Below, in pieces: positions 6,448 through 10,170 of a stretch of 64,000 bases of DNA. Where the stretch lies: NCBI RefSeq assembly GCF_000799735.1, contig NZ_JUHH01000001.1:1736001-1800000 (forward strand), given 5' to 3'. Position 1 is the first letter of the stretch, and each line of letters opens with the position of its first letter. Both the position numbers and the translations under genes were made by a program. Under the pieces are notes generated by a model. It saw only the letters and a program-made list of their open reading frames with translations, did not search any database and was not told where the DNA came from. The DNA comes from Methylotenera sp. G11 (lineage in GTDB: Bacteria; Pseudomonadota; Gammaproteobacteria; Burkholderiales; Methylophilaceae).

Positions 6448-8292
6448 CTAAAAACCACCAGGCGCCTTGTTTGAAGTCAGCCGCAGCAAGGCGTTCACCA
6501 TGACATCCACCTCCGCAGGCGTATTATAAAAAGCCAGCGACGGCCTCACCGTAGTTTCCACGCCAAAACGGCGCAGGATTGGCTGCGCGCAGTGGTGCCC
6601 GGAACGTACTGCAATCCCCTCCTGATTGAGCGCCGCACCCACTTCCTCACTCTTGAATCCATCCAACCGGAATGAAAGTACACTGGCTTTTTCCTTAGCA
6701 GTACCCACCAGATGCAAGCCGGGTATTCTGGACATTGCTGCTGTGGCATAGACCAATAATTCATGCTCATAACGCGCAATGTGATCGATGCCGATGCGCT
6801 CCACATATTCCAGCGCAGCGCCCAAACCCACCGCATCTGCGATATTGCCGGTACCGGCCTCAAACTTGGCCGGTGCTTCATGGTATACGGTTTTATCAAA
6901 AGTGACGTCCTGAATCATATTGCCGCCACCTTGCCAGGCTGGCATGTCATCCAGCACTTCGGATGTTCCGTACAGCACGCCGATACCGGTTGGGCCAAAC
7001 ACTTTATGGCCCGAAAACACAAAGAAATCAGGATTCAGCCCTTGCACATCCGTGCGCATGTGCGACACCGACTGCGCGCCATCGAGCAATACTTTTGCAC
7101 CGGCCCGGTGTGCCATCTGTATCATTTCTGCTGCAGGCGTGACCGTTCCGAGTGCATTGGATACCTGGGTGAATGAAACCAGTTTCACGCGCGGAGTCAG
7201 CAACTGCTGGTACTCTGCCAATAGTATCTGTCCGCTGTCATCGACAGGTGCCACCTTGAGCCTGGCGCCTGTTTCCTGGCAAAGCTGCTGCCAGGGCACG
7301 ATATTGGCATGGTGCTCCAGATGTGAAATGACAATCTCATCGCCTTCGCCCAGGTGTTTCTTACCCCAGGTCTTCGCTACCAGATTGATCGCCTCTGTAG
7401 TACCGCGCACAAACACAATATTATCTACAGATGGCGCATTGATGAATCGCCTTACGGTTTCACGCGCCCCTTCATAGGCATCGGTCGCACGTGCTGCAAG
7501 TTCATGTGCGGCACGGTGGATATTTGAATTCTCATGCGCATAAAAGTAAGCGATTCTATCTATCACGGCCTGCGGTTTTTGTGTCGTAGCCGCATTGTCA
7601 AACCAGATCAGGGGACGCCCGTTCACCAGTTCACGCAGAATCGGAAAGTCTTTACGTACCAGGTTCGCATCAAACGGCGGATGCGCGGCGGCCGGCACTG
7701 CCGGCTGTGTCTTCAGCAATGCATCCTGTAAAAAATAATATGGCGTTAAACTTGTGCCGCCGGGCACGCCAGCCACAGCGCCATCCGGTTTACCCGCCAG
7801 TGCGCCATCCAATATCCGGTTAAGCTCTGCCTGATACGGATCATCGATACCCAGCGGCAGCCAGCCCGATTGCAGCCCATCCTTACTGACAGGCCATTGG
7901 TTTGCATAGCTGGCATCAGCCAGGCTCGGCACACCGGAAACAGCACCAGGCACGGCCTGCCAGATGGAAGGTATTGGTGCCTGCACCGGGTCTTTTGGGG
8001 CATTTGCACCCGGCAGCACTGAGGCGGCTGCAATTTGCGACAGTGAGGCATTGGAAGGGAAATCCTCAGCCTGGCCAAAAAGCGCACCTGCCGGAAAACC
8101 CTCCGCATACAGCTCATTGGCTATACGGCTTAACTCGGCTACATCCAGTACGCCGTTCTGGCTGGCCTGCCTGCCCACGGCAAGCCCGGCAGCCATACGC
8201 GGATGTTCGCCGGGCATTGCAGCCAGTATCGCCTCCGGCTCAAATGATGATAAATCACCCAATGCCGTTGAAAATTGATTACTTGTAGTCAT
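6448..8292 (-). CDS. Family 2A encapsulin cargo: cysteine desulfurase with N-terminal targeting extension
   Basis: A 614-residue protein in two parts. Residues about 205-606 are a SufS-type class V aminotransferase that takes sulfur from cysteine to form alanine and an enzyme persulfide. The PLP lysine is K430 (SGHKVFGPTG) and the catalytic cysteine is C568 (RSGHHCAQP). Residues 1-204 have no catalytic motif and are rich in Ala, Pro and Gly with short conserved-looking islands (ELSRIANELYAEGFPAGALF, SGWLPLG, DPYQAELNRILDG). This is the layout of cargo proteins packed inside family 2A encapsulins. The start overlaps the shell gene stop by 14 nt, implying translational coupling. Cargo role is inferred from family and context. 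Confidence 0.94.
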   Translation of the reverse strand: MTTSNQFSTALGDLSSFEPEAILAAMPGEHPRMAAGLAVGRQASQNGVLDVAELSRIANELYAEGFPAGALFGQAEDFPSNASLSQIAAASVLPGANAPKDPVQAPIPSIWQAVPGAVSGVPSLADASYANQWPVSKDGLQSGWLPLGIDDPYQAELNRILDGALAGKPDGAVAGVPGGTSLTPYYFLQDALLKTQPAVPAAAHPPFDANLVRKDFPILRELVNGRPLIWFDNAATTQKPQAVIDRIAYFYAHENSNIHRAAHELAARATDAYEGARETVRRFINAPSVDNIVFVRGTTEAINLVAKTWGKKHLGEGDEIVISHLEHHANIVPWQQLCQETGARLKVAPVDDSGQILLAEYQQLLTPRVKLVSFTQVSNALGTVTPAAEMIQMAHRAGAKVLLDGAQSVSHMRTDVQGLNPDFFVFSGHKVFGPTGIGVLYGTSEVLDDMPAWQGGGNMIQDVTFDKTVYHEAPAKFEAGTGNIADAVGLGAALEYVERIGIDHIARYEHELLVYATAAMSRIPGLHLVGTAKEKASVLSFRLDGFKSEEVGAALNQEGIAVRSGHHCAQPILRRFGVETTVRPSLAFYNTPAEVDVMVNALLRLTSNKAPGGF

Positions 8293-9196
8293 AGTAGTTG
8301 CCTACATCAACATTTTCCAGCACAGCGATCGCGTCATCCGTCAGCACAGCCAATGAGCAATATAACGATACCAGATAGGAAGCGATCGCCTTATGGTTAA
8401 TGCCCATGAAGCGCACAGACAGCCCCATGCTCTGCTGGCCAGGTAGATTAGGCTGGTACAGCCCGACCACACCCTGACGGCTTTCACCGGTGCGTAGCAA
8501 TAGAATGTTGGTTTTGCCGCCCGTCACTTTCAATTTATCGCATGGAATGATCGGTACGCCGCGCCATGTAATGAACTGGGATCCGAATAATGCTACGGTT
8601 GGCGGCGGCACGCCACGGCGTGTACACTCACGGCCAAATGCAGCGATTGCCTGCGGATGCGCCAGAAAGAATGCCGGCTCTTTCCACACCTTAGCCAGCA
8701 GTTCGTCAAAGTCATCCGGCGTTGGCGAGCCGGTGCGCGACTTCACTTTCTGCGACGGTGCAATATTGTTCAGCAAACCATATTCTTTATTGTTAATGAG
8801 CTCGCTCTCCTGGCGCTCTTTAACGGTTTCAATGGTCAAACGCAATTGCTCTTTGATCTGGTTGTGCGGGCTGCTGTATAAATCTGAAACACGGGTATGC
8901 ACATCCACTGCGGTATTCACCGCATTCAGCACATACTCGCGGCCCCACTCCTCGTAGTCTACAAAGGTTGCCGGAATCTCGCGCTCATCTTTTGCCGAAC
9001 AATCCACCTCAATGGAACTTGGATCCTTGACTTTATTGACGCGGTAAATACCCGCTTCTACCGGCACCCATTGCAGCAGATGCACCAGCCAGCGCGGCGT
9101 GATGGTGCCCATCATGGGGACGGTTTTAGTTGCATTCGATAATGTACGCGCAGCTACGTCGCCTAATGCGGTATGGGCTTGGTGTATGTCAGTCAT
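8279..9196 (-). CDS. Family 2A encapsulin shell protein (SrpI-like)
   Basis: The 305-residue protein matches the SrpI / major membrane protein I family, which has the HK97 phage-capsid fold and self-assembles into a hollow icosahedral compartment. Recognisable features are the N-terminal arm (ALGDVAARTLSNATKTVPMM), the TPRWLVHLLQWVPVEAGIYR stretch and the C-terminal segment around GINHKAIASYLVSLYCSLAV. There is no cyclic-nucleotide-binding insertion, which separates it from family 2B. AGGAGA precedes the ATG. It lies 38 nt after epsC and overlaps the cargo gene, so shell and cargo are made from one message. Despite the historical name it has no membrane segment. Confidence 0.94.
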   Translation of the reverse strand: MTDIHQAHTALGDVAARTLSNATKTVPMMGTITPRWLVHLLQWVPVEAGIYRVNKVKDPSSIEVDCSAKDEREIPATFVDYEEWGREYVLNAVNTAVDVHTRVSDLYSSPHNQIKEQLRLTIETVKERQESELINNKEYGLLNNIAPSQKVKSRTGSPTPDDFDELLAKVWKEPAFFLAHPQAIAAFGRECTRRGVPPPTVALFGSQFITWRGVPIIPCDKLKVTGGKTNILLLRTGESRQGVVGLYQPNLPGQQSMGLSVRFMGINHKAIASYLVSLYCSLAVLTDDAIAVLENVDVGNYYDYK

Positions 9197-9234
9197 TGCT
9201 TTCTCCTGTGAAAATTTTAAATATGAAATCTGGG

Positions 9235-10170
9235 CTACTGTGCAGTTTCGTTAACTGCGTGTTCCTGGGTTTTGGCCTGAGTGACCTGGCTGCCCGGCGG
9301 CACGCTGCGGGTCAGCCAGACATTACCGCCGATGACTGAACCGGCGCCTATGGTGATGCGGCCGAGAATGGTGGCGCCTGCATAAATCACCACGTCATCT
9401 TCGAGTATCGGATGCCTGGCACTGCCTTTGATCAGGTGTCCGTGCTCATCGGTAGGAAAGCGCTTGGCTCCCAGGGTGACAGCCTGGTAAAGCCGAACAT
9501 GGCGGCCGATTACGGCAGTTTCTCCAATCACCACCCCGGTTCCGTGATCGATAAAGAATCCTTCGCCTATTGCCGCGCCGGGGTGAATATCTATGCCTGT
9601 GGCTGAGTGCGCCAACTCTGAAATGATTCTGGCAATCAGCGGCAATCCCAGCTGATGCAGCTCGTGCGCCAGGCGATAATTGATAATTGCAGATATGCCG
9701 GGGTAGCAAACCAGCACCTCATCCAGGCTGCGTGCAGCCGGGTCACCTTCAAAAGCTGCATCGAGATCGGTATCCAGCAGCTTGCGGATTTGCGGCAACG
9801 TCCTGGCAAATGCACGTGCTTTATTGAAAGCGGCCTCGGCGCTGGGAGTTTTATCGTGCCCGGTGTCTGCGGAATATCGCAGCTCCAGCTGGATCTGCGT
9901 GTTGAGTTCACGCAACGCAGCATCCAGGGTATATCCGACAAAATAATCAACACTTTCTTCTTTCAACCCCGGGGTACCCAGCCGGTTAGGAAACAGCGCT
10001 GCGCTCAGGCCATCCACCACCTCCTGCAGCGATTTTCTTGAAGGAAGCTTTGGCGGCTTATTTCGCCTGTGCCGCTGCTCCAATGACGTTAACCTGACAT
10101 CGCGCAGCGCTTGCACAATATCCGGAATATCAAAGCTTTCGTTAAATGACGCTGTAGTAGGATGGAGCAT
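9235..10170 (-). CDS. epsC: Serine O-acetyltransferase, EpsC type
   Basis: Makes O-acetyl-L-serine from serine and acetyl-CoA, the carbon acceptor for sulfide in cysteine synthesis. The 311 residues comprise a long helical N-terminal region (1-185) and a left-handed beta-helix (186-300). The beta-helix has hexapeptide turns and the catalytic loop IHPGAAIGEGFFIDHGTG, with H196 and H209 in it. The long N-terminal part is typical of the EpsC branch rather than classical CysE. First gene of the encapsulin operon: its product feeds cysteine supply, whose sulfur the encapsulated desulfurase can remove. The start is preceded by AGGTG. A terminator hairpin lies only 21 nt upstream, suggesting attenuation. 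Confidence 0.94.
   Translation of the reverse strand: MLHPTTASFNESFDIPDIVQALRDVRLTSLEQRHRRNKPPKLPSRKSLQEVVDGLSAALFPNRLGTPGLKEESVDYFVGYTLDAALRELNTQIQLELRYSADTGHDKTPSAEAAFNKARAFARTLPQIRKLLDTDLDAAFEGDPAARSLDEVLVCYPGISAIINYRLAHELHQLGLPLIARIISELAHSATGIDIHPGAAIGEGFFIDHGTGVVIGETAVIGRHVRLYQAVTLGAKRFPTDEHGHLIKGSARHPILEDDVVIYAGATILGRITIGAGSVIGGNVWLTRSVPPGSQVTQAKTQEHAVNETAQ

Follow-up and report, generated by a model that had tools for sequence, protein, structure and literature searches.

The 64,000-nucleotide stretch of the Methylotenera sp. G11 genome analysed here (the window; positions 1,736,001 to 1,800,000 of contig NZ_JUHH01000001.1) carries on its minus strand a family 2A encapsulin operon with the gene order epsC, shell, desulfurase, preceded by a short leader element that consists of a hairpin, P1, and an intrinsic terminator. 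All 2,545,099 bases of the genome are on one contig. The three open reading frames (ORFs) of the operon lie where the first-pass annotation, made from the sequence alone, had placed them: an EpsC-type serine O-acetyltransferase (311 aa; 9235–10170), the encapsulin shell (305 aa; 8279–9196) and its cargo, a SufS-type cysteine desulfurase (614 aa; 6448–8292).

The shell scored 540.1 bits with the family 2A profile NF041162 (encap_f2a; cut-off 380) and was also above the cut-off of the family 2B model (424.7 bits; cut-off 400). Since the best 2B stretch spans only positions 210–449 of the 450 of that profile, family 2A is the better fit; with its higher score and full profile coverage, a 2B shell was rejected and the proposed family 2A identity upheld. 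The SrpI-like domain PF19307 (354.2 bits) was the sole Pfam domain of the 305-aa protein, that scan giving no cyclic-nucleotide-binding domain, which the consulted part of PMC12407261 describes as a mark of 2B shells. The closest solved relatives are SrpI (PDB 6x8m; 520.9 bits with phmmer), followed by 'major membrane protein I' chains. Methylotenera and other Methylophilaceae make up most of the named relatives with 91–98% shell identity.

The cargo matched NF041166 (f2_encap_cargo1) with 890.1 bits (cut-off 800) and, among PDB entries, 8kg1 best (641.8 bits). The pyridoxal phosphate lysine K430 (SGHK) and the catalytic cysteine C568 (GHHC) are both present, as previously noted. In the N-terminal domain (NTD; about residues 1–205), LSRIANELY begins at residue 54 and PYYFL at residue 184; they are similar to the motifs LARLANEFFS and AASPYYFLDG given in the consulted part of Nichols 2021 (PMC8049743), so that the assignment of a desulfurase cargo with an N-terminal loading extension was retained. 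Among the 78 of 80 named loci that carry both shell and cargo, loose versions of motifs 1 and 2 were found in 76 and 74 cargo sequences, and stricter patterns in 71 and 17, respectively. The first gene of the operon was above the cut-off of the EpsC profile NF041874 (161.3 vs. 150) and below that of TIGR01172 cysE (171.8 vs. 210.65).

Shell and cargo overlap by 14 nt (8279–8292), the length first reported, and an ATG with the same overlap and a frame of at least 400 codons occurs in 72 of the 78 loci; among the other six, the cargo of L032 and L033 starts 2 nt past the shell stop. The suggestion that shell and cargo output are tied is thus supported at the level of gene arrangement, which is conserved. 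The three genes had, however, been called coupled as a set, and this does not hold for epsC: since it lies 38 bp from the shell gene, which has its own GGAGA before the start, coupling in the strict sense applies to shell and cargo alone. The genome contains one cysK over the cut-off and several other Aminotran_5 proteins (best, 507 bits), and the encapsulated desulfurase is therefore not the sole one.

The loop proposed in the first-pass annotation, in which cysteine is made and its sulfur then stored, remains plausible and is strengthened by the position of cysK, which heads many Methylococcales-type loci (the L067 ORF matches TIGR01139 cysK with 450.3 bits) directly before epsC, shell and cargo; a serine-to-cysteine-to-sulfur route can therefore occupy one operon. 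Family 2A encapsulins have been linked to the storage of elemental sulfur, and one paper reportedly describes sulfur storage in Acinetobacter.

Neither the shell–cargo system nor its association with serine acetyltransferase is new. In Synechococcus elongatus the SrpI/CyD shell–cargo pair, which resembles that of Methylotenera in shell and NTD motifs, has been published, with SrpI upregulated on sulfate starvation (Nichols 2021, PMC8049743, consulted part); the Methylotenera operon differs in being headed by epsC (cysK in many relatives) behind a P1-terminator leader. Serine O-acetyltransferase is among the most enriched accessory components of family 2A desulfurase operons (Giessen 2021, PMC8346489), an identical gene association, whereas a leader RNA is not mentioned in the part of that source consulted. 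We see the novelty in this leader and in its second copy before a porin gene, neither of which the first-pass annotation mentioned.

Structure and covariation of the leader element

The leader element (10191–10247, minus strand) matched covariance model R1, built from an alignment of 59 copies (A1), with 72.2 bits (E = 6.6e-16); among the matches listed, the only other one in the genome was its own reverse strand (24.7 bits). Hairpin P1 (10223–10243) is composed of P1a, in which GCU (10243–10241) pairs with AGC (10225–10223), an internal loop GA/A, and P1b, CCGG-ACAA-CCGG (10238–10227). The terminator (10190–10226) has a stem-loop at 10226–10197 and a U-run. Since P1a (GCU/AGC) and the base of the terminator (AGCC../..GGCU) require the same AGC, the full P1 and the full terminator are mutually exclusive, as judged from pairing geometry and covariation. 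In the predicted fold of a short RNA without the 3' arm of the terminator, GCUG pairs with CAGC, likewise occupying the terminator arm. The 56-nt element has a folding z of -6.69. A second leader hairpin, AGCCAATGC..GCATTGGCT (10272–10302, minus strand), was not seen among the relatives listed (by eye) and was dropped as a regulatory candidate.

The element lies within the 295 bases between epsC and a divergent sulfate-binding-protein gene, with the run GCUGACCGGACAACCGGAAGCCAGCGUGUCGUGAGACACGCUGGCUUUUUUU directly before epsC; most related leaders show this arrangement, the remaining leader sequence being divergent. On the operon side, TGGTGTATATTG (10316–10327, minus strand) looks, on reading, like an extended -10 promoter, although it was absent from the list of a sigma-70 scan. 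Similar sites occurred in 9 of 79 regions upstream of element copies, vs. 0.55 in shuffles.

Pairing was evaluated in alignment A1, which holds 59 of the 68 element stretches found and leaves out near-duplicates (L006, L017, L024), doubtful copies (L039 and L044, minus strand) and long-loop copies (L065, L069, L071, L101). P1b was paired in 100% of cells, with two-sided change in 3/4 pairs, and closes a 4-nt loop in 59/59 copies. With P1a included, P1 was paired in 99.5% of 413 cells (two-sided change in 4/7 pairs), and the terminator in 86.9% (7/11 pairs), two of its upper pairs (columns 31–48 and 32–47) being mostly unpaired where loop lengths vary. For P1b plus terminator, all five covariation measures lay beyond 500 shuffles. 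Because relatedness can inflate results compared with shuffles, the slid control matters: 90.4% of cells were paired in register and at most 51.4% out of register.

In 1.26 Mb of loci picked around encapsulins or the element, a P1 pattern written after the copies had been seen matched 84 sites, and its reversed control matched none. The exact pattern CTGACCGGANNNCCGGA gave 27 sites vs. 4 control sites in 369 class-wide genomes; on reading, many of the 27 lie within long open frames or lack a fitting context, and about six look genuine (the window's own copy, L118, L127, L131, L132 and L141).

CCGG-N4-CCGG is also a dyad, and it could be a DNA operator bound by a transcription factor, its adjacency to a terminator being coincidental; a DNA-binding regulator shared by sulfur genes would be ordinary, and the abutment of strong copies on a terminator is partly built in, as model R1 includes the terminator. 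The conserved flanks of the dyad, however, lack symmetry (GA faces a single A), P1 contains G-U pairs, and the window site is downstream of the promoter-like site, so that we hold an operator to be highly improbable.

It is also very unlikely that the structure is an ordinary terminator of an upstream transcript, without regulatory role, beside a plain family 2A encapsulin operon. Terminator-like sites are indeed common (13 in 6.8 kb vs. 7.4 expected from shuffles), but the ORF list has no minus-strand ORF of at least 80 aa between 10171 and 10465, and P1 keeps its sequence in both beta- and gammaproteobacterial loci to a degree that a terminator would not require. Nor is the element widespread: among the matches listed for the 369 class-wide genomes, it was strong only in the window's genome and in G322, two further matches reached 35.7–37.9 bits, and nothing else exceeded 38 bits.

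Distribution of the element and the genes behind it

Model R1 was run over 187 genomes of the window's family, giving 62 strong matches (E < 1e-8) in 60 genomes. Among the matches listed, a strong element was present in 57 of 62 shell-positive genomes and in 3 of 125 shell-negative genomes, and 57/57 copies were on the same strand as the shell gene and at most 4.5 kb upstream of it. The counts exclude copies of 33.9–43.4 bits in G057, G107, G174, G175 and G178, several of which adjoin the same cluster, and all matches from about 32 bits downwards. Two of the shell-negative carriers are on short contigs (G152, 7,077 bases; G077, 6,548 bases); in the third (G062; 2.6-Mb contig), the element precedes an NMT1-like ORF, a cysK-like ORF lies in divergent orientation, and no shell was matched.

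In 61 genomes of the order of G322, the element was found in 17 of 21 genomes with a shell over the cut-off vs. 2 of the 40 others, and 15 of the 17 copies share the strand of the shell gene and precede it by no more than 4.5 kb. Six element sequences from this order recur letter for letter in named Methylobacter, Methylomonas and Methylovulum loci and in unclassified loci, and the order was therefore taken as Methylococcales. G569, which has the element and no shell, seems to retain parts of a cysK and of a desulfurase gene. Among the named loci, 49 of 80 had R1 matches of at least 50 bits (52 matches), many of the remaining loci being truncated or lacking epsC. Family 2A shell matches occur more than once on the contig of L091 and L098 (JAQTOX010000034.1) and in the genomes G610 and G597, and shell pieces in G597 and G573 resemble split or broken shell genes.

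The genes following the element were determined for 79 strong copies (73 distinct), comprising the 52 named-locus matches and 27 from the order; the 52 came from loci fetched via the shell, and references for the last 9 genes were added after the loci had been seen. A same-strand gene starts 20–237 nt downstream (median, 50 nt) in 79/79 copies. The next gene is epsC in 31, cysK in 30, the shell gene in 9 and another gene in 9, namely an OmpP1/FadL-type outer-membrane protein (3), a sigma-54 activator (3), a secreted or surface-type protein (2, tandem copies before one gene in G593) and an OsmC-like protein (1). For the 27 copies found genome-wide in the order, 19 precede cysK, epsC or shell and 8 other genes. 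Further Methylophilaceae copies (L204–L207 and L044) precede an outer-membrane protein gene, which is just past cysA in L206, L207 and L044; the L206 protein matches Toluene_X (PF03349, 124.8 bits), and the genes following in L205 include a sub-cut-off Sulf_transp match and DUF6691. P1b reads CCTG..CAGG in L204 and L206 and is imperfect in L205 and L207.

These positions bear on the idea that the leader yields a small RNA of its own, about 120 nt long and running from near the promoter-like site to the terminator, with hairpin and terminator forming a stable 3' end and epsC expressed from another promoter or by read-through. The terminator is strong and near-perfect, and, by eye, there seems to be little conservation from the promoter-like site to P1, as might be expected. 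Such an RNA is nevertheless unlikely, given the short distance from the element to the start of different genes in all copies and the tandem copies before one gene in a single genome. Moreover, P1 hairpins without a terminator occur in porin leaders, where they cannot be such a 3' end.

One of these terminator-less hairpins, with the same fold, lies in the window itself (3071–3095, plus strand), in the leader of a Porin_O_P family outer-membrane porin gene (3111–4715, plus strand; PF07396, 107.6 bits). By eye, P1 is present at most 75 nt before the start in 10 of 16 distinct porin homologs and missing in 6, and homologs of the sulfate-binding-protein gene have no P1 within 75 nt. The set of 16 terminator-less copies analysed comprised 11 before porin homologs and 5 before other or unnamed ORFs; the L076 porin copy was left out, being followed by a T-run. 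At the four P1a positions, 54 of 64 cells were paired, more than in any of 2000 shuffles (on average 47.4 and at most 53), and for the whole P1 92.2% of 128 cells were paired vs. 84.4% in shuffles, with 0/500 shuffles reaching this value. A small DUF2292 protein (PF10055, 52.5 bits; 2738–3016, plus strand) is encoded upstream of the porin gene.

Neighbouring genes

The operon is flanked by plus-strand genes for sulfate transport. A sulfate ABC transporter substrate-binding protein (4866–5876; NF008022, 532.7 bits) is encoded on one side, and on the other a second one (10466–11464; TIGR00971, 435.5 bits), divergent from epsC, followed by CysT-, CysW- and CysA-like genes (12543–15431; named from reading the ORFs). 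Searches with the window proteins (tblastn) showed that the operon adjoins sulfate-transporter genes in most sufficiently long Methylophilaceae loci. Before the divergent gene, a ATTCTTTTACATTATTT-like stretch (about 10400–10425) is conserved in many of these loci (by eye) and is perhaps a regulator site shared by the divergent promoters. A DUF2325 protein (PF10087; 5946–6263, plus strand), retained in many relatives, is encoded between the first binding protein and the cargo, and an EAL-domain (c-di-GMP phosphodiesterase-like) gene (11379–12389, plus strand) lies between the second binding protein and CysT, as in many Methylophilaceae loci; this placement may connect c-di-GMP with sulfate import. 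Two tandem rRNA operons, 5980 bases apart, occupy 15830–27221, and the match scores of their rRNAs and tRNAs are equal.

Gene order differs in Nitrosomonas-type loci, as seen by tblastn among L048–L060. These usually start with a binding protein, often a DUF2325-like match, an EAL-like match (here between binding protein and shell), shell and cargo, followed by CysT, CysW, CysA and often EpsC, all on one strand.

A putative antitermination switch

No known RNA class was detected at the element. The window and 11 loci gave no Rfam 15 match at gathering score, and a known Rfam family was therefore rejected; for the window leader with E up to 10, only OrzO-P, FtrA and OmrA-B appeared, all far below cut-off (best E, 0.5). 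A c-di-GMP-I riboswitch in L084 lies elsewhere in that locus. In the literature searched we found no description of such a leader, although a 2017 candidate-RNA survey (reportedly 224 candidates) was not covered and absence from print is thus not established; among the papers searched, none contains the literal motif strings and none joins Methylotenera and encapsulin.

Ribonucleic antiterminator (RAT) elements act by protein-dependent antitermination, the 3' strand of a small hairpin overlapping the 5' strand of a terminator, and ANTAR leaders contain two hairpins with conserved hexanucleotide loops. P1 likewise overlaps the 5' strand of its terminator, but the window's genome lacks the CAT_RBD protein of the BglG/LicT type, and the loop of P1 has 4 nt, unlike the paired hexanucleotide loops of the ANTAR consensus. 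At about 21–25 nt, P1 is small for a riboswitch aptamer. The STAS-associated riboswitch candidate of Streptomyces (PMC11109978, consulted part) is also associated with a gene whose product has a sulfate-transport-type domain, but it is a three-stem junction and differs from P1 in structure and host.

We consider it probable, from sequence comparisons, that P1 and the terminator form an antitermination switch of a sulfur-linked regulon that gates the family 2A compartment. RNA polymerase, starting perhaps near 10310, would transcribe a leader that ends in the strong terminator before epsC. Under sulfur shortage, binding of P1 by a trans-acting factor would allow transcription to continue into the operon; an RNA-binding protein is the most likely candidate for this role, a small ligand a less likely one. 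Two observations suggest a binder that favours P1 under sulfur limitation: most genes behind the element serve cysteine synthesis, the compartment or the outer membrane, and the homolog in S. elongatus is upregulated in sulfate-starved cells. EpsC would then provide O-acetylserine for cysteine synthesis, and the shell, judging from known relatives, would pack the desulfurase via its NTD, the enzyme inside taking sulfur from cysteine. In porin leaders, the terminator-less P1 may act on translation or mRNA stability.

Several observations weigh against such a switch. i) Once the leader is complete, its minimum-energy structure contains P1b and the terminator but lacks P1a, and hence the antiterminator state is not favoured alone. 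ii) P1a is near-invariant in copies with a terminator, its pairing drawing on a few changes and on the 16 terminator-less copies; in the latter the count of pairs with two-sided change is unexceptional (193/500 shuffles reach it), L118, L127, L131 and L132 had been selected among the 27 pattern sites for their context, and the scan that gave L082 required P1a. iii) The promoter-like site is absent from 70 of the 79 upstream regions. iv) Shell genomes without the element amount to 5/62 in the family and 4/21 in the order of G322, L215 (G046, of the window's family) has cysK-like, epsC, shell and cargo without it, and in G573 and G603 it sits away from an intact shell gene. v) The 14 Nitrosomonas-type loci (L048–L050, L052–L058, L060, L066, L097 and L103, some named Proteobacteria only) gave no strong R1 match (L066, 16 bits), L058 having a P1-like site without terminator. 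vi) By eye, there are no obvious sulfur genes around the sigma-54 activator gene. vii) No trans factor was found: the window's genome gave 0 CAT_RBD matches (a control profile matched 4/14 genomes), and its 2 ANTAR proteins are encoded outside the window. The direction of control is a guess, and binder and signal are our inference.

The element may mark a regulon that unites the sulfur compartment with cysteine synthesis and outer-membrane entry. On the wider proposal our judgement is evenly balanced: that P1 represents a new family of hairpins for antitermination and translation control in a sulfur-linked regulon of methylotrophic beta- and gammaproteobacteria, through which an as yet unnamed RNA-binding factor would switch on the sulfur-storing compartment, cysteine synthesis and outer-membrane uptake together. 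A leader element common to the compartment, epsC/cysK and outer-membrane genes names candidate co-regulated partners of the encapsulin. If P1 is indeed bound by a protein, this would be a new RNA-based form of sulfur-linked control, apart from DNA-level regulators such as CysB.

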